From a virus: a stretch of DNA of 28,912 nucleotides. The notes under the pieces are model-generated. The model made no database searches. It had not been told where the DNA came from and saw nothing but the letters and a program-made list of their open reading frames with translations. Below are positions 2,082-28,296 of this stretch, piece by piece (the stretch's first letter is position 1; each line of letters starts with the position of its first letter). The position numbers and the translations under genes were made by a program. The stretch spans positions 1 to 28,912 of IMG/VR virus record IMGVR_UViG_3300031162_001394; one strand, given 5' to 3'.

Positions 2082-3032
2082 CTACCCAGCTTCTGGGGAG
2101 GTCGCAATGAATTTGCGAACTTTTTCAGCAGGCATGCCGTTGATGATCATCTGTGTCATCCAGTAATTCAGCCCCTTGGCGTCTGGTGGCCGATCGAGAA
2201 TGTCGACGTAAGCTTTCGTAACCTCGATAACCGCGTGCCGCCAATCGTTGATTGACACCTCGCCCAACTGGATCGACTCTGTATGGGCCGTCACCAGCTC
2301 CTTAGCCGGTTTCCTCTGCAGCGCCTTGTGCAACTGAGGGCCAACGACATCGTGGCGGAGGTCGAAGACATACGGCATCGTCGCCCGGATCTCGTTGATC
2401 GCCGCAAGGACATCGTTGAGCTTCTTCTCTTGCTCTGGAGTCATAGAATCCTGGTCTTTCTGGGAGTGATCTTCAACCGCCGCAAAGAAGCGACCCCAGG
2501 GAAAGTTCTCCCCAGGATCAGACCTGCGTCCGGGATCGCGTTCACCGTGGCTGATGAACCCTGGGCGTCGGTACTCCGACATTTGCCGAGTAATCCGTTC
2601 CAGTGGAATCGTAATCCCAAACTGGGTTGACACCCAATCTCTGAGCTTGGCCACCTCGGCCCCAGCCTGCTCCAACGCCCCCTCGACCCACTCGCTTGGC
2701 AGCTGCGACCATTGATCAGCTCTGCAAGCAAACGAAATCGCGATGGCGTGCGAATTTGAACCCGTCCCGTCCTGCCACGCTTCCATCCATGGCGGGATCA
2801 ACGGCACAGTCGAGTCCGAATCAACAAGCGAATGGTAACTGCCTGGCGTCCGTCGGCTCTGAATGAACCTCGCTACGCTTTCAGCTCCGCTGTCCGGCAG
2901 AGCTAGATCGGTGGCGTTTTCCGCGGTGTGAACGACGATCACTCCCGAAACAGGGGAGCGTCGCACGCGACGGAACTGGCTCCGAACCGGAGGGTGCTGT
3001 AACAGAAAGTACGACCGATCGCTGATGGTCAT
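2082..3032 (-). CDS. Endolysin: N-acetylmuramoyl-L-alanine amidase with DUF4214-like C-terminus
   Basis: A 316-residue lysin expected to cut the amide bond between N-acetylmuramic acid and the peptide stem of peptidoglycan at the end of infection. Residues about 25-185 fit the Amidase_2 zinc fold: VIVVHTAEN places His35, SYHSLVDSD is the central strand, and SHGERDPGRRSDPG followed by ENFPW places His162 and Asp172. His35, His162 and Asp172 are the likely zinc ligands. A helical, charged linker (about 190-265) joins a C-terminal segment at 274-313 (AYVDILDRPPDAKGLNYW, then VRKFIATSPEAG) that matches the DUF4214 pattern of Y-x-x-x-L-x-R-x-P-D-x-x-G-x-x-Y-W. No signal peptide is visible, so a holin is needed for release. 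GAGG lies too close to the ATG to be an ideal ribosome site. Confidence 0.88.
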   Translation of the reverse strand: MTISDRSYFLLQHPPVRSQFRRVRRSPVSGVIVVHTAENATDLALPDSGAESVARFIQSRRTPGSYHSLVDSDSTVPLIPPWMEAWQDGTGSNSHAIAISFACRADQWSQLPSEWVEGALEQAGAEVAKLRDWVSTQFGITIPLERITRQMSEYRRPGFISHGERDPGRRSDPGENFPWGRFFAAVEDHSQKDQDSMTPEQEKKLNDVLAAINEIRATMPYVFDLRHDVVGPQLHKALQRKPAKELVTAHTESIQLGEVSINDWRHAVIEVTKAYVDILDRPPDAKGLNYWMTQMIINGMPAEKVRKFIATSPEAG

Positions 3033-3056
3033 ACCTCATCTTACGTTGGCTGAGTG

Positions 3057-3368
3057 TCAAGGCCAGTTTGGTTTGTGACCGAGATCAAGGAGTTGGCCCG
3101 TCAACGTCGCAACGCCTTCCTCACGGTGCGTGATTCTGATTCCGTCGGCAGCGCACCTAGCTGACAAGGCGTCGACCTTCTGTTCGAGGGTTTTGACCCG
3201 TTCCCGCAGCGGGTCGATCAAAGACAAAGCTGTTTCGACGGTGATGTCTGCGGCTGTGGCTTCGTGCTCGGACACCGCTGCTGTTGTTTGCCGACGCTGG
3301 AACGCAACACCCACGCCGGACACGATCGACGCCACCGCAGCCGAGTAGATGGCGATCCATTCATTCAT
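3057..3368 (-). CDS. Small membrane-anchored coiled-coil protein, lysis block
   Basis: This encodes 103 residues. Its ATG overlaps the upstream stop by 4 nt (ATGA). The N-terminus (MNEWIAIYSAAVASIVSGVG) forms one membrane segment, followed by a basic FQRRQ stop-transfer and a long helix with heptad-like spacing (ALSLIDPLRERVKTLEQKVD, about residues 47-66). Such single-span proteins with a coiled-coil tail are common beside phage holins and endolysins, and some are second holins or spanin-like helpers. The sequence alone does not decide between these. It lies between the three-span membrane protein and the endolysin, so it is probably translated with them. No catalytic motif is visible. Confidence 0.75.
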   Translation of the reverse strand: MNEWIAIYSAAVASIVSGVGVAFQRRQTTAAVSEHEATAADITVETALSLIDPLRERVKTLEQKVDALSARCAADGIRITHREEGVATLTGQLLDLGHKPNWP

Positions 3369-3757
3369 TCATCGCCGTCACCTTCTGCAATCTCGGTTCG
3401 TGCCACCCCTGCCAGGCGCAGCACCCGCTCGACAAGATCCCGCATCAGTAAGGAACGCAATGAGGACATGACAAGGTAGAGCCCGACGCTTGGACGCAAC
3501 CACAGCGCCGTTGGTAGCCCGTGGTCATGTGCTAGCCCGTGGTCGTCCTCCAACGCCAGCACACCGAACGCCAACCCGGTCCACAGACTGACCGCCAGCA
3601 GCCCGGCGGTTAGTGGGACAGTCCACGGGACAGCCAACCGGATCGTTGCCCGCAGCGCCACCCACCAGTAAGCGGCGACACCAGCACAGACCGCGACCAT
3701 CAGCCACTGTGAAACGTGGTCGAAATCGTCCAACCACGCGCTTGCGTAAACGCTCAC
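3365..3757 (-). CDS. Three-span membrane protein, holin candidate
   Basis: The GTG start at 3757 is chosen because it overlaps the preceding stop as GTGA; a longer reading from 3931 would lie over the DUF1353 gene. The 130-residue product has three hydrophobic segments: LMVAVCAGVAAYWWVAL, VPLTAGLLAVSLWTGLAFG and a weaker one around LRPSVGLYLVMSSL. It ends with a charged tail (VARTEIAEGDGDE). Three spans, a short N-terminus, a charged C-terminus and location two genes before an endolysin fit a class I-like holin. Family membership is not demonstrated by any motif I recognise. The stop overlaps the next gene's ATG by 4 nt. Confidence 0.72.
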   Translation of the reverse strand: MSVYASAWLDDFDHVSQWLMVAVCAGVAAYWWVALRATIRLAVPWTVPLTAGLLAVSLWTGLAFGVLALEDDHGLAHDHGLPTALWLRPSVGLYLVMSSLRSLLMRDLVERVLRLAGVARTEIAEGDGDE

Positions 3758-4137
3758 CAGTCGCCCGCCCAGAACGCCAACCTCACTGCCGCCCACATCG
3801 ACCACACGCGCCACGTCGGAGTCCCCAAGGCAACCATCATGTGCCGGAACTCTCGATCCACTTCCCTCTTGGTTCGACAACCGAGCAACCGATGCCGGGG
3901 TTTTCTGTAGAGAAAGTCGTGTGCAACGCACGCTTGCAACTGGGGTTGGCCGTGTGGAGAAATGATCGGCCAGAACACCCGAGGGATCGAACCAAGGTCA
4001 GTCCTAAACCCGACTTGCACCGTCACAAACTTCCCCGACCCGATTACACCGACCTCCCAAACAAGCTCGTCGGTTACCTTCCATTCCTTGCCGCCCACAG
4101 GTTGGATCGAAGTTTGAGCGTCTGTCCATCTACTCAC
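3754..4137 (-). CDS. DUF1353 family protein
   Basis: This encodes 127 residues with the hallmarks of DUF1353, a small phage and prophage family of unknown function often found near lysis or tail-tip genes. GFRTDLGSIPR at 43-53 corresponds to the conserved F-x-T-D-x-A/G-S-I-P-R motif. AHDFLYRK at 72-79 is the conserved H-D-x-L-Y motif, and REVDREFRHMMVALG follows with the conserved acidic and Met residues. The C-terminal helix (VWSMWAAVRLAFWAG) is hydrophobic and matches the usual ending. Start GTG 4137 overlaps the stop of the tiny membrane gene upstream (GTGA), and its stop overlaps the next start the same way, so four lysis-block genes form one coupled translational unit. The biochemical role is unknown; the context suggests lysis or host-envelope interaction. 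Confidence 0.85.
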   Translation of the reverse strand: MSRWTDAQTSIQPVGGKEWKVTDELVWEVGVIGSGKFVTVQVGFRTDLGSIPRVFWPIISPHGQPQLQACVAHDFLYRKPRHRLLGCRTKREVDREFRHMMVALGTPTWRVWSMWAAVRLAFWAGDW

Positions 4138-23223: not shown

Positions 23224-25188
23224 TCACATGGTCCTCACAGGAGATACAGGCTCAGGATCAGGCTCCTGGGACTCCAGATCTGGAGCCTCCACCGCAAACC
23301 CCTGTTGATCCAACGCTTCCAATTCTTCTTCGTCCACATCAGCCGGATCGATCCCCAAGGTCTTAGCCATTGCATACTTCCTACCTGCGATTTGTACCAT
23401 GACCGCCGCTTCATCGACTCGACGCATTTGAAGATCAGCAACAACAGCGTCGATATCGCCGATCTCCATACCGGCATTCTCGATCAGTCGCATCGCTACC
23501 GATTCGGTCATCAGGCCACGATCCGCCAAAGCGACGATGGTGTCGACAAGCGACGACAGATCCGTCGGAATGTACGAACCGAACTGGATTTCAATGTCAT
23601 GCAATTCCGGGTCAGCAACAAATTCCGGCAGACCAGCCACGGTGCTGAGCATCTGCAACAGCCGGTAATGCCGGGCAAGCCTCGGCCCACGCGACAACCG
23701 TCGCCGTTCGATCAGCTGCTTGTACGGCGTGAACGTCAACAGGATCGACACGCCAGCAACCATCTGGTTGGCCTGGACGTGACCCAACACGCCCTCTGGG
23801 AGACCAGTCACAGCCGACAGGTGACGCCGCAGGTACTCCGCCCGTTTCATCAACGCCAGCGTCGCGTCGGCCATCTCGACCTTCGAGATCTTTCCCTCCA
23901 ACACTGAACCGACTTCGTACGTCACCGACCCGGTGCCGTTGTCGGCCAGTTTCCCTTCTTCCAACGCGAGGATCGGTTGGCCTGTCAAGTCGGCAGCTCG
24001 TGCCCCGTCAGAGTCGTTCAAAGCGATCTCGTCAAGCAGTTGAGCGTAGAACGAATAGATCGAACGACCGAAGTGGGTCAGGTACGACAAGTCCGACGGC
24101 TGGTGAACAATCGGCATCTCGTGGATCCACAGATCGAAATCCCTCAACGGGACCGGATTGCCTTCGTCGTCCAACTCCCCAGAGTCAGCCCAGACAGCTG
24201 CTTCCGGCGACAAGTCATCCAACTGCGACATGGTCCGTTTGTTGAACTTGTCCAGTTCCCACGTCCCATCCGACATGACACACGTCTTCCCGGAACGAAT
24301 GTTGACGTTCTCATGCTTATACGGGTATTCCCGAATAATTGGTTCGCCGGTCGTTTCATCTACCACATCAACCAGTTCGTAAGTGACACGCCGCAACATC
24401 CGCTGCGTCTCACCCCGATTATTCAGCGTCTCGTACTCGTACGCGAAATGAACTTTCTCAGGGTCAGCAGTGATGTCGTCCTCAGGGAACACCGGGAAAT
24501 AAGCGTCCGGCTCCCAGATCTTCATCTTCGGCCACAAAGCATCCGGGGTCAGCTCACCAGAACCCTCCGACCGGTGCGGAATCGAGAACACCGCAACCGA
24601 ATCGCCGAGCGGTGTCGTCAACTCGGTCTCCGCCTCCCGAACCTTCCCCTCCCAATTCTCTTCGAACGCCCAATGCCGCATCCACTTCTGGCGGGCACGT
24701 TTCATCGGCTGCGCCATCTGCCGACGTTCCCACTCCTCGATCGCCATCACCGACTGCGCTTCCCAAACCCGCATCTGCGCGTCGTACGAAGCAGCTTCAA
24801 CCGGATGCGGATCACTCGGAACGAACGGCTGTGCAGGAAAATCAGGTTCCGGCGGAAGCCGCAAATCAGCGTCAACCACCTTCACAGTGATGTCGTCACC
24901 AAGAGTCGCCGCCGCAGTCCGATCAGACATCGCAGGAGCGTCGCCCCACTCCCGCCAAACCTTCTGCAGCTCAGTGTTGTCATCAGCCAACGTGAACCGG
25001 GCAACAGTCTCCCGGTAAGCGCGCGCCGTCAGATACGCCAACAACCTCCGACGATCCGTCTCCGGCACCCACGACGGGATCTTGCCGCCCATCGTCCAAT
25101 CGGCGTGCATGGAGTGCTTGTGATCAAACCCGGAATACTGATCAAGCTGGAAAGCTCCACCGTACGGGGAGTGGCTTACATCTGACAT
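23224..25188 (-). CDS. Portal protein
   Basis: A 654-residue protein directly after the large terminase, starting with ATG 25188 with AAGGA upstream. It would form the dodecameric ring through which DNA enters. Parts that fit actinophage portals are the N-terminal arm and helix (ETDRRRLLAYLTARAYRETV), a wing region of alternating strands (KVHFAYEYETLNNRGETQ, MLRRVTYELVDVVDETTG), the WIHEMPIVHQPSDLSYLT strand and FGRSIYSFYAQLLDEIALND helix, LRRHLSAVTGLPEGVLGHVQ in the stem/crown transition, and the long helix ERRRLSRGPRLARHYRLLQM. The acidic C-terminus (DVDEEELEALDQQ, then PDLESQEPDPEPVSPV) is likely disordered. A nearly unbroken frame, family order and length all agree. Confidence 0.92.
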   Translation of the reverse strand: MSDVSHSPYGGAFQLDQYSGFDHKHSMHADWTMGGKIPSWVPETDRRRLLAYLTARAYRETVARFTLADDNTELQKVWREWGDAPAMSDRTAAATLGDDITVKVVDADLRLPPEPDFPAQPFVPSDPHPVEAASYDAQMRVWEAQSVMAIEEWERRQMAQPMKRARQKWMRHWAFEENWEGKVREAETELTTPLGDSVAVFSIPHRSEGSGELTPDALWPKMKIWEPDAYFPVFPEDDITADPEKVHFAYEYETLNNRGETQRMLRRVTYELVDVVDETTGEPIIREYPYKHENVNIRSGKTCVMSDGTWELDKFNKRTMSQLDDLSPEAAVWADSGELDDEGNPVPLRDFDLWIHEMPIVHQPSDLSYLTHFGRSIYSFYAQLLDEIALNDSDGARAADLTGQPILALEEGKLADNGTGSVTYEVGSVLEGKISKVEMADATLALMKRAEYLRRHLSAVTGLPEGVLGHVQANQMVAGVSILLTFTPYKQLIERRRLSRGPRLARHYRLLQMLSTVAGLPEFVADPELHDIEIQFGSYIPTDLSSLVDTIVALADRGLMTESVAMRLIENAGMEIGDIDAVVADLQMRRVDEAAVMVQIAGRKYAMAKTLGIDPADVDEEELEALDQQGFAVEAPDLESQEPDPEPVSPVRTM

Positions 25189-25233
25189 GACTTCACAGTC
25201 CTTGAGGTTCGAGCTGGGTTACAGGATGTTGAA

Positions 25234-28200
25234 TCATTTCCGGTACTTCACAGTCCCCGAAGTGCGCCGCGACACGAGTTCCATCGAAACCTGTTTGGCT
25301 GGCATCAGAAACAAAGTCGCATACACAAACGCATCGAGCCGGTCAGGCGATTTCCTCGACTTGTCCGGTTCGAACGTACAGTTGTGAACGAGCACCCCGT
25401 CAGCGAAGAACTCAGGCAGATGCCCCGTCTCCACCATCAGGTTGTAGACGGGCACGGCGGCAGTAGGTGCGCTTCCTGCACTGGCTTGAGCAGAACTTGG
25501 AGCGAGGCCCCCTGGACCAGTAGGAGGCTTCGCAGCCCTCACAGCAGCGCTCCGTCGGTGCCCGTCGAGCCCACTCGTCCCGCCTGGCCTGGCTAGCGGC
25601 CTCACCGCGGGGGAGGCTGGCCGCCCGATCGTGCTCAACGGCGTGTTCTCCTGGGGTGACCAGGGCAAGGTTGCCGATCTCGTTGTTCCCGGGGTTGTGA
25701 TCGATGTGGTGGACAAAGACCCCGTCAGGGATCTCGCCGTGGTGGCCGCGCCAGATACGTCGGTGGAGCAGCTCACCTTTCGCGTGACGGAAGTGCCCAC
25801 TTGGCATTCGGTGGTACCAGCGCCCCCGGTATTCGATAGGCGGGCCATGCTTGCCCATCTGGGCTCTGCGAGAAGGCGGGTCGAAGCCGTCACACTCCTC
25901 GCAGGAACAAACTTGCCGGACGTCGAATCGAATATCGGATGACATCCGGTCATAACAACACAGCCCTCGACATGAGAGACCATTGTGAGGTCGGCAGAAA
26001 CGCCAGTCTGACCGGACCAGGCAACCGGTGCCCACCCGGCACGGGTCAGCACCGAATCGCCAACAGTGACCTCCTCGATCGGCACATGGCCCCGCTCCGT
26101 CAACACCAGCGTCCCACCAACGAGACACATCTGATCTTCCAACAGAGGATACGAACCAGCGAACTTGACTTGGCCCTGGTCGGAAAGAAGCGCCACCGGT
26201 TCAGCCCTGAGATGTTTGCCCCGTTTGGCGAACACGTCCCGGATCGGAAGGTTTTTCGAGTACCGGCCCAACACTTCGCGAACCAGTTGCCCACCCTGGT
26301 TCGTTTCAGCGATCACGTAATCGGCGTTCCACTCCTCATACTTTTCGGCGACTTTCTTCGCCCATTCGGAAGGTCGGCCACGCATCGACGCGTCATCGAT
26401 CACAGCGATCTGTTCAGAGTTGTAGCCCATGTCGCCAAGCCGACGGCACGCAACAACGATCCCGCATTCGTCGCCGGTCCCATCACCAGTCGACGGATCC
26501 ACCGCCACCACTGTCGTACCCCGTGCGTATGGTTCAAGGATCCGATGCAACGGGACCCGCATCTGCGAGATCGCTTCAGGCGTCCACAAAGCCCCCTCCG
26601 CGACGTCAAGCAATTTCCCTTCCAGCTCCTGCGCGCCGAGACGAGTCCCGTCGTAACGGCCAACAACACGTTTACGGAACGTCTCAGCCAGATTCGCGAC
26701 GTTGTCAAGAGTCCGCATCGAAGAGATCACCGTGTCCGGGTCATCAAACACGCCCGGATAATGCTCATCCTCCTCGTTACGGATCCGCAACAGGCGCACC
26801 GGTTTCGGAGTTGTAGTCGCAATAATCCGAGGCTCCCAACGGCCCCCATCGTCCATACGGACAGCGAACTCCATGTTCGACCAAGTCGAATCCTCAGACG
26901 GGGCCTTATGAGCATCAAGCCAGGCGGCTGGCTCGTCGCAATTGTGGACTCTTATGCCTGAGGCGTAGAACTCTGAGGTGCTGGTGGTGATGTCGTAGAC
27001 GTCAGCGGCCCGCAGTGGAAATGCCGCCGCTACGCAGGTCGGGCCGTCTTCTTGGTCTTGTAGTGTTTCGCCTGGTTGGACTTGGTCGAGTCGGACCCAG
27101 CCTTTCCCAACGACCCACACCGGATGATCCGGCGTCGCATCAACATTCCCGCCCGTATGCGGCAACCGCCACACCTCCGCTGTCTTGCGAGTCAGCCCAG
27201 ACCACGACACCGTCGCAGGCCCAGCCGCGGACGCCACCACGTCACCCACCGCAATCTTCTCGATCGGAACCAGGGAACCATCAGGAAACGTCACAGGAGT
27301 CCCGGCAGGGAAACACCACGACAAATGAAAGTTCGGGCCCCGCAAACGAGACGGCCGCTCCGACGAATACCCCTTCAAATATGCGCCGTTGTCGAGCCAC
27401 ATCTCCACAGACGACCGGTTGAACTGGACGATCCGTCCCCCCTCCGTAGCCATCCCGCCGAACACTTTGAACAGTTGGCCCTCAACCATGTCGATACGGA
27501 CCGCGTCGAGAGTTGTCGACACGAGAGCGCAGCGGGGAGGTTCGTTCCATTCGGTCCCCAAAAGAAGTTCCCGGATCGCCTCAGCACCAGCCCTGGACTT
27601 GCCTGAGTTGTGGTTGACGAAACCGTCGGCGAGGTAGTTCTCGTAGCCGGGGACGGTCAGATCCCAGAAGTCGTCTTCGCCGACTGGTTCGATCGACACC
27701 ACGTTCGAAGCTGTATGCGACGAACGGGGCACATCTCTCTGCGACCCTGACAGGACGTCGGGGGTCGCGGCGATCACAGTCCCGACATCGATATCCGCTA
27801 GACGGACCCACCCCGACGGCGTCAAAAACCGGTGCTGATCGGTTACGACAATCTCATCCCCTCGGGCATTGGCCACACGGTACAACCGGGCACGACCCTT
27901 CCTGAACGACCGCGACCCCACAGCCACCACAACCCGGCCGTATGGGTCGACAGCGTAAAGCTCGCCGCCCCGAAACTTTTCGACCGGAACCTCACCGGCC
28001 GGGGTCCCGATGAGAGTTCCCGCAGCGACACACCCTCTGCCCCCCATGAGAAGCCAACATCGCCAATCGTCGCGGACACTGAACGAACCTTTCGTCCCCG
28101 GCAACAACTGAGACGGCCGGGCCAAACCATTCCGCCACGGGTCGACAGGCGCGGCAGGTTCCTGCAAAACAGCGACCTCGTCCGCGACTAGGTCAGCCAA

Positions 28201-28296
28201 ACCAGGGAACTCGGAATCGATAAACCCCAACACCTGCGGATCGCGGCGAACCTCAGTGAGGAGATCCTGCAAAAGTTGCGACGGAACCCGACTCAC
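25234..28296 (-). CDS. terL: Large terminase subunit with three inteins
   Basis: A 1020-codon frame from GTG 28296 (GTGA overlap with the upstream gene) encodes the packaging ATPase-nuclease. Host parts are residues 1-88, 231-327, 453-723 and 973-1020, together 504 residues, a normal TerL length. ATPase motifs are Walker A (GGRG at 85-88 joined to SGKSRAG at 231), Walker B (HLSW at 324-327 joined to CDEPAAW at 453) and the coupling motif IIATTTPKP (491-499). The nuclease has Asp600 in VVAVDPSTGDGTGDE, Glu664 in YVIAETNQGG, and Asp985/Asp988 in SPDRLDAF. Each break is filled by a class 1 intein with N-terminal Cys and C-terminal His-Asn, followed by Ser, Cys and Cys. Active TerL therefore requires three splicing events. 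The third intein holds an out-of-frame HNH gene. Confidence 0.96.
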   Translation of the reverse strand: MSRVPSQLLQDLLTEVRRDPQVLGFIDSEFPGLADLVADEVAVLQEPAAPVDPWRNGLARPSQLLPGTKGSFSVRDDWRCWLLMGGRGCVAAGTLIGTPAGEVPVEKFRGGELYAVDPYGRVVVAVGSRSFRKGRARLYRVANARGDEIVVTDQHRFLTPSGWVRLADIDVGTVIAATPDVLSGSQRDVPRSSHTASNVVSIEPVGEDDFWDLTVPGYENYLADGFVNHNSGKSRAGAEAIRELLLGTEWNEPPRCALVSTTLDAVRIDMVEGQLFKVFGGMATEGGRIVQFNRSSVEMWLDNGAYLKGYSSERPSRLRGPNFHLSWCFPAGTPVTFPDGSLVPIEKIAVGDVVASAAGPATVSWSGLTRKTAEVWRLPHTGGNVDATPDHPVWVVGKGWVRLDQVQPGETLQDQEDGPTCVAAAFPLRAADVYDITTSTSEFYASGIRVHNCDEPAAWLDAHKAPSEDSTWSNMEFAVRMDDGGRWEPRIIATTTPKPVRLLRIRNEEDEHYPGVFDDPDTVISSMRTLDNVANLAETFRKRVVGRYDGTRLGAQELEGKLLDVAEGALWTPEAISQMRVPLHRILEPYARGTTVVAVDPSTGDGTGDECGIVVACRRLGDMGYNSEQIAVIDDASMRGRPSEWAKKVAEKYEEWNADYVIAETNQGGQLVREVLGRYSKNLPIRDVFAKRGKHLRAEPVALLSDQGQVKFAGSYPLLEDQMCLVGGTLVLTERGHVPIEEVTVGDSVLTRAGWAPVAWSGQTGVSADLTMVSHVEGCVVMTGCHPIFDSTSGKFVPARSVTASTRLLAEPRWASMARLSNTGGAGTTECQVGTSVTRKVSCSTDVSGAATTARSLTGSLSTTSITTPGTTRSATLPWSPQENTPLSTIGRPASPAVRPLARPGGTSGLDGHRRSAAVRAAKPPTGPGGLAPSSAQASAGSAPTAAVPVYNLMVETGHLPEFFADGVLVHNCTFEPDKSRKSPDRLDAFVYATLFLMPAKQVSMELVSRRTSGTVKYRK
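25381..26127 (-). mobile_element. TerL intein 3 (249 residues) hosting an out-of-frame HNH gene
   Basis: The intein runs from Cys724 to Asn972 of the TerL frame, between EDQM and CTFEPDKS, just before the last nuclease aspartates. Block A reads CLVGGTLVLTERGHVPIEEV, block B VMTGCHPIFDSTSGKF with the T-x-x-H His at 786, and the C-terminal blocks VYNLMVETGHLPEFFADG then VLVHN before Cys973. All splicing residues are present. The in-frame middle (about 814-945) is a low-complexity Ser/Thr/Ala/Gly/Pro stretch such as TTARSLTGSLSTTSITTPG, which is not a folded endonuclease. The splicing halves alone sum to about 116 residues, close to intein 2, as if a mini-intein had received a foreign gene. Confidence 0.93.
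25412..25858 (-). CDS. HNH homing endonuclease nested out of frame in TerL intein 3
   Basis: In the -1 frame relative to TerL, a 148-residue protein starts at ATG 25858 (MGKHGPPIEYRGRWYHRMPS). It matches the free-standing phage HNH family from end to end: a strand pair IEYRGRWYHRMPSGHF, LLHRRIWRGHHGEIPDG, the HNH core VHHIDHNPGNNEIGNLALVT then PGEH (residues 49-71), a helical linker, and a C-terminal zinc finger CCEGCEASYWSRGPRSKFCS with SSQC after it. Third positions are GC-rich in this frame. The frame is open upstream to GTG 26128, with another ATG at 25945. No good Shine-Dalgarno precedes 25858; CGAGGAG lies 36 bases upstream. Expression might be by weak internal initiation or by -1 frameshifting. 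The probable role is cutting intein-free terL alleles to drive homing. Its stop falls inside the intein's block F. Confidence 0.9.
   Translation of the reverse strand: MGKHGPPIEYRGRWYHRMPSGHFRHAKGELLHRRIWRGHHGEIPDGVFVHHIDHNPGNNEIGNLALVTPGEHAVEHDRAASLPRGEAASQARRDEWARRAPTERCCEGCEASYWSRGPRSKFCSSQCRKRTYCRRARLQPDGGDGASA
26941..27315 (-). mobile_element. TerL intein 2 (125-residue mini-intein) in Walker B
   Basis: This runs from Cys328 to Asn452, between HLSW and CDEPAAW, so it splits the Walker B motif ahead of the catalytic Asp-Glu. Block A is CFPAGTPVTFPDGSLVPIEK, block B NVDATPDHPVWVVGKGWVRL with T-P-D-H at 388-391, block F ADVYDITTSTSEFYASGI and block G RVHN before Cys453. There is no room for an endonuclease. 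At 125 residues it is near the lower size limit of natural inteins I know of. It probably splices but cannot home by itself. Confidence 0.93.
27607..28032 (-). mobile_element. TerL intein 1 (142-residue mini-intein) in Walker A
   Basis: This runs from Cys89 to Asn230, between GGRG and SGKSRAG, exactly within the ATP-binding P-loop. Block A is CVAAGTLIGTPAGEVPVEKF, block B GDEIVVTDQHRFLTPSGWVR with T-D-Q-H at 152-155, and the C-terminal blocks DDFWDLTVPGYENYLADGF then VNHN before Ser231. The extein nucleophile is Ser, whereas it is Cys for the other two inteins. A loop around residues 178-198 (TPDVLSGSQRDVPRSSHTAS) may mark a lost endonuclease site. No endonuclease domain is present in this or other frames that I can see. 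Confidence 0.93.

Follow-up and report, generated by a model that had tools for sequence, protein, structure and literature searches.

A predicted HNH homing endonuclease gene overprinted in the −1 frame of a phage terminase intein, and recurrence of the layout in other phages and bacteria

In the textbook view, an intein that carries an endonuclease is a single protein in which splicing and endonuclease domains are fused. Dassa et al. are said to have described, in 2009, fractured genes with split inteins, the gene for a homing endonuclease lying between the parts. In collaborative homing, an intron is paired with a neighbouring free-standing endonuclease (PMC10448857). An out-of-frame HNH gene has been reported in the ShiLan insertion in a phage DNA methylase (PMC11855218). 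Arsenault, Gosselin and Gogarten (2025), who reported it, conclude that this insertion is no intein. An out-of-frame HNH gene has also been published for Applejack (PMC12613952). Full-text searches yielded no report of a splicing intein that contains an endonuclease gene out of frame; a prior description is possible, the actinobacteriophage inteins of 'Non-Canonical Architecture' (10.1101/2025.01.02.630785) being outside their coverage. The first-pass annotation of the DNA studied here had tentatively taken its arrangement to be undescribed. This holds for splicing inteins in the full texts covered, but out-of-frame HNH genes are on record for non-splicing insertions (PMC11855218), and the arrangement proved to be widespread and not unique.

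The stretch of DNA analysed (the window) comprises 28,912 bases of the uncultivated virus record IMGVR_UViG_3300031162_001394. The window TerL DNA had no match in a near-identity search of phages. The terL gene and its inteins are as follows:

25234..28296, minus strand: terL, terminase large subunit gene with three inteins; precursor of 1020 aa, 504 aa if spliced
27607..28032, minus strand: intein 1, mini-intein of 142 aa, inside Walker A (GGRG|SGKS)
26941..27315, minus strand: intein 2, mini-intein of 125 aa, in the Walker B region (LSW|CDEPA)
25381..26127, minus strand: intein 3, 249 aa, CLVGGT...VHN|C, directly before the RNase H motif SPDRLDA

The TerL frame runs continuously from 28296 to 25234 on the minus strand and is open across all three inteins; hence, the gene is not divided into two separately translated parts, as it is in a fractured gene with a split intein. 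With the three inteins removed on paper, the resulting 504-aa TerL aligned across the junctions in single pieces to the intein-free TerLs of many phages. An HNH gene is present only in the third of the three inteins in this terL gene (25234-28296).

The intein 3 frame is open from Cys1 to the final His-Asn, which is followed by Cys+1. The diagnostic residues are C1, T60xxH63 of block B, H248-N249 and Cys+1, and the two Hint halves correspond to residues 1-90 and about 221-249. The host-frame stretch of the window matches the Hint_2 and intein_Cterm models, and C1, H63 and N249 are invariant across the 56 inteins in an alignment of relatives. In the AlphaFold model of the intein frame, the two Hint halves have pLDDT values of 91-98, and most of the stretch shared with the HNH gene has values of 42-59 and is unstructured. 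In the terL frame, intein 3 is best classed as a predicted Hint-type mini-intein that is expected to splice and has a long disordered loop where an endonuclease domain would normally sit. The overlapping HNH gene and the intein blocks at its two ends are located as follows:

25412..25945, minus strand: HNH endonuclease gene, 177 aa and a stop, in the −1 frame of intein 3; preferred start ATG 25945
25412..25858, minus strand: shorter HNH reading of the first-pass annotation, 148 aa, from ATG 25858
25892..25909, minus strand: N-terminal C-x-C-x2-C motif of the HNH protein, common to its closest relatives
25631..25711, minus strand: HNH core H79 H80 ... N88 N92 ... H101 H105 (177-aa numbering), invariant or nearly so in 58 sequences; Pfam HNH_3
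25478..25543, minus strand: C-terminal zinc-finger-like C135-x2-C138 ... C152-x3-C156, invariant in 58 sequences
25939..25950, minus strand: intein block B with catalytic T60-x-x-H63; dual-coding, containing the preferred HNH start codon (ATG 25945)
25381..25413, minus strand: intein C-terminal block F/G, EFFADGVLVHN, with the HNH stop codon (25414-25412) at its start

The HNH frame has an offset of 2 (−1) relative to the intein 3 frame, and the gene ends at 25412, inside block F and 31 nt short of the intein end. The frame coordinates (26127-25381 for the intein, 25412 for the HNH end) thus confirm what had been read initially, namely an intein frame open from Cys1 to His-Asn and an HNH gene in the −1 frame with its stop inside block F. 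The HNH protein matches Pfam HNH_3 with an E value of 3.5e-15, and has the hallmarks of HNH homing endonucleases, an H-N-H core and a zinc-binding module. The AlphaFold model of the 177-aa protein has a mean pLDDT of 86.7, with the N-terminal stretch at fair confidence. Its best PDB match, a modest one, is I-HmuI (1u3e; Z 7.5, rmsd 10.1, 120 residues aligned, 16% identity), which shares the HNH core and overall arrangement but differs in its zinc-finger additions and is intron-resident, whereas the window HNH is intein-resident. The GC content at codon positions 1, 2 and 3 of the HNH gene is 0.667, 0.559 and 0.718, respectively; the third position, previously described as GC-rich, is indeed the highest, but this signal is weak.

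The gene had originally been taken as complete at 25412-25858. The presence of an HNH gene in the −1 frame and its end at 25412 are upheld, but its start is probably ATG 25945. The N-terminal stretch MSSDIRFDVRQVCSCEECDGFDPPSRRAQ of the window HNH is kept in its nearest relatives, L006-L008 and L010-L012, with which it has the pattern SDI...VCSCEEC...P.RK.Q.G in common. In these relatives the HNH gene starts 176-194 nt into its intein, and L006-L008 have the same insertion site as window intein 3, EDQM|C. Because the N-terminal extension is conserved in the nearest relatives, ATG 25945, giving 177 aa, is very likely the start, and not ATG 25858. With a start at 25945 the HNH gene would overlap block B, and at either end of the overlap the same bases would therefore code for conserved residues of both proteins. 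The Shine-Dalgarno sequence is weak at both candidate ATGs (25945 and 25858).

Like canonical bifunctional inteins, intein 3 has Hint halves, Cys1, TxxH in block B, His-Asn and Cys/Ser+1, and carries nuclease DNA at the usual endonuclease position. Unlike in those inteins, the endonuclease is in another frame, has its own start and stop, and would have no covalent link to the intein. The ShiLan insertion resembles the window in that its HNH gene is out of frame, the host frame is left open and homing is presumed; by its published coordinates (GTG at base 18 of the insertion), the relative frame is apparently the same, −1. However, the ShiLan insertion is without splicing domains, whereas the window HNH lies within a complete intein and shares bases with its catalytic blocks. 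The element in the window is also like collaborative homing, in which the splicing element and the endonuclease are separate products that spread jointly, except that here the splicing element is an intein, with the endonuclease gene contained in its own bases.

A tblastn search with the HNH protein matched the terL genes of Rhodobacteraceae phage MD07, Tetrasphaera phage TJE1 and Acinetobacter phage Highwayman, and in all three the terL frame includes an intein with an HNH gene in its −1 frame. The public records of TJE1 (L003, 1083-3269), MD07 (L002, 1110-3158) and Highwayman (L004, 906-3188) annotate terL, and the overlapping HNH gene is absent from them. A single-sequence search of IMG/VR with the window HNH gave no relatives, and no close relative of it was found; the IMG/VR survey was therefore done with an HNH protein alignment. 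The best 80 of at least 506 relatives were kept, and the resulting counts are thus no census. Within this scope, a second open frame extends across the whole HNH gene in 70 of the 84 loci examined. Relative to the host frame, the HNH frame is −1 in 69 of these and +1 in one (L040), with the remaining frame closed in all. After removal of copies more than 90% identical, 58 loci were left. The host-frame stretches, that of the window included, match the Pfam models Intein_splicing (62/71) and intein_Cterm (54/71). An endonuclease in frame with the intein, as in canonical bifunctional inteins, was seen in none of the retrieved loci: the offset is 2 in the window, 69 of the 70 overlap loci are alike, and one has its HNH gene in the third frame.

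The host genes are mainly terminases, and include 5 portal genes and 1 gene for a DegT-like aminotransferase. A scan of bacterial and archaeal genomes and a few more phage records revealed 15 further loci with an intein C-terminal motif, one in a phage record and 14 in bacterial genomes, among them that of the cultured Piscinibacter sakaiensis (L119). The overprinted arrangement is therefore widespread in dozens of unrelated phages and prophages, and is neither an assembly error nor a one-off. This recurrence in terminases, portals and bacterial genomes sets the overprinted inteins apart from the ShiLan insertion.

The range of host genes bears on the strongest of the alternatives, in which the HNH protein does exist and is translated on its own, yet is no homing enzyme: it would work for the phage, for example by helping TerL to package the genome, and would simply be housed in the intein. 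HNH nucleases encoded beside terminase genes can act in packaging (HK97, PMC10448857), and many of the HNH relatives adjoin terL. However, the intein-resident family is also found in the 5 portal loci and the DegT-like aminotransferase gene, which mobility fits better. A role of the HNH protein in packaging or regulation may exist, but as the explanation of the arrangement this is improbable.

To assess chance, each HNH gene was shuffled synonymously and the stops in its other frames were counted. Averages of 1.78 stops per HNH gene were expected in the intein frame and 14.4 in the third frame. In the 69 loci with a −1 HNH frame, no intein-frame stops were seen (joint log10 P about −80, with shared ancestry ignored). 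For some AT-rich phages 4-5 intein-frame stops were expected and none seen, and many AT-rich loci singly have P values near or below 0.01. The window HNH is GC-rich, and its intein frame stayed open in 66% of the synonymous shuffles (P 0.66). Thus, the open intein frame in the window alone is not statistically notable, and its significance comes from the relatives. Locus L040 (1512-3611) is the only one with the HNH gene in +1 relative to the intein; 10.6 stops were expected there and none were seen, which suggests a separate origin under strong dual-coding selection.

Substitutions were compared in ten related pairs of loci; the window HNH had no close relative with which to be paired. In the overlap of L065 and L072, the numbers of substitutions at HNH codon positions 1, 2 and 3 are 3, 2 and 30, respectively, where HNH third positions are intein second positions. 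In the intein-only N-domain of the same pair, substitutions at host-frame positions 1, 2 and 3 number 5, 3 and 15. The other pairs point in the same direction, with a weak trend in the overlap of some (L030/L070, chi-square P 0.14). Over the same DNA, the HNH identity exceeded the intein-frame identity in 9 of 9 pairs tested. These data support the view that constraint passes from the intein frame outside the overlap to the HNH frame inside it. Co-inheritance of HNH and intein was assessed by a Mantel r of 0.31, which was reached by 0 of 2000 permutations, a Spearman coefficient of 0.05, and agreement of nearest neighbours in 24 of 56 cases; with such mixed values, either strict co-descent or frequent exchange may apply. 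Across the relatives, both frames are open, conserved and constrained. The first-pass annotation had named lack of conservation of the HNH frame in relatives as a finding that would overturn its proposal; the frame is conserved.

How the HNH frame is translated is relevant to a somewhat less probable alternative, −1 ribosomal frameshifting from the intein frame to give a TerL-IntN-HNH fusion with the endonuclease attached. The HNH gene is nearly always in −1, the direction of the common programmed frameshift, and in the window the −1 frame is open upstream across the whole intein, back to the intein 3 start. However, the stop counts alone (1.8 in the intein frame versus 14.4 in the third) leave −1 as virtually the sole frame open to a stop-free overprinted HNH gene, and this frame preference requires no frameshifting. 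In medians across loci, the HNH gene starts 254 nt into the intein and stops 49 nt before the intein end, and its frame opens only 27 nt upstream of the chosen start. A Shine-Dalgarno match precedes 25 of 51 first in-frame HNH ATGs, as compared with 56 of 466 control ATGs (P=2e-9). In-register slippery heptamers are present near the HNH start in only 8 of 61 loci, and programmed frameshifting is therefore no general solution. Such a fusion is accordingly considered unlikely, and initiation of a separate HNH protein at an internal start codon is preferred.

Two further explanations are very improbable. An ordinary in-frame intein endonuclease broken by two compensating sequencing or assembly indels could be entertained for one uncultivated contig, the more so as a second frame opens by chance fairly easily in the GC-rich window, but the same −1 layout in 69 loci from many assemblies, in the TJE1, MD07 and Highwayman records (TJE1 and Highwayman being isolated phages) and in a cultured bacterium, with the in-frame version in none of the retrieved loci, led to rejection of a sequencing artefact. 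A group I intron with a coincidentally open intein-like frame would fit the HNH genes that phage introns commonly carry, but on either side of the HNH gene there are intein splicing domains, in frame with TerL and complete in their catalytic residues, the intein frame runs beyond the HNH stop to His-Asn, and positions 25100-26400 match no Rfam family at E up to 1, a result that leaves room for an undescribed intron.

Relatives in which the HNH gene is not overprinted on a continuous intein were also found. A free-standing HNH gene of the same family lies beside terL in Pseudomonas phages PAE1 and FBPa53, Sphaerotilus phage SN1, Exiguobacterium phage vB_EauM-23, Lactobacillus phage CL2 and Brevundimonas phage Poludnitsa, and upstream of the terminase genes in Acinetobacter phage BP10. 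In Vibrio phage 1.245.O (L087, NC_055736.1, 2100-3400), the terL frame stops within the intein, the IntC half has its own start, and the HNH frame overlaps both:

end at 2537: TerL-IntN
2423-3133: HNH
start near 3060: IntC-TerL

This phage is like the fractured genes in that TerL-IntN, HNH and IntC-TerL are separate overlapping frames; in the window, by contrast, the intein frame is continuous. The annotation of NC_055736.1 lists the halves as terL and a hedgehog/hint protein, and the HNH gene is missed. The split form in Vibrio phage 1.245.O may have derived from a continuous overprinted intein, and it is plausible that a free-standing gene colonised a mini-intein. As judged from these sequences, the suggested path leads from a free-standing endonuclease through the overprinted intein to the split one, with its direction inferred.

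The first-pass proposal of a separately translated, unfused HNH protein encoded within a mini-intein gains support from the layout in dozens of loci, the switch of the constrained frame, the enrichment of Shine-Dalgarno matches and the free-standing relatives beside terL. The window most probably carries a composite homing element, a single stretch of bases from which, we infer, separate translation yields a splicing part and a cutting part. In the terL frame, intein 3 would excise itself and leave TerL functional. Read in the −1 frame from an internal start codon, the loop DNA and the edges of the splicing blocks would encode a separate HNH homing endonuclease, which would most likely cut terL alleles lacking the intein, at the insertion site or close to it. 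Repair would then copy the whole intein, and the splicing and cutting parts would spread jointly while remaining unfused.

On balance, the overprinted inteins appear to form a widespread unrecognised class, with the homing endonuclease in the −1 frame, and a step between free-standing endonucleases beside terL, mini-inteins, and fractured genes with split inteins. Overprinting offers an answer to how an intein could acquire an endonuclease with no working fusion having to evolve beforehand, and could plausibly lead on to split inteins and fractured genes. With two reading frames, the splicing and endonuclease parts could be selected or lost independently while the DNA moves as one unit. The class would also supply many natural cases of dual coding in which selection is measurable in both frames. 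Overprinted endonucleases escape annotation, as in TJE1, MD07 and Highwayman.

Three other observations concern single loci. L096 and L103, which have long HNH frames, were considered as in-frame fusions and rejected, as no intein was present on inspection. In L111 (1-980, uncultured Selenomonadales), the sequence of an HNH gene with zinc-finger repeats is also fully open in a second frame, with no intein motif in the part available; this frame may be a reading-frame shadow of the repeats, or the locus a truncated element. In L137 (1331-4732, an uncultured Clostridium bin), one terL gene contains two overprinted inteins, with −1-frame HNH frames at 1996-2685 and 3349-4059.
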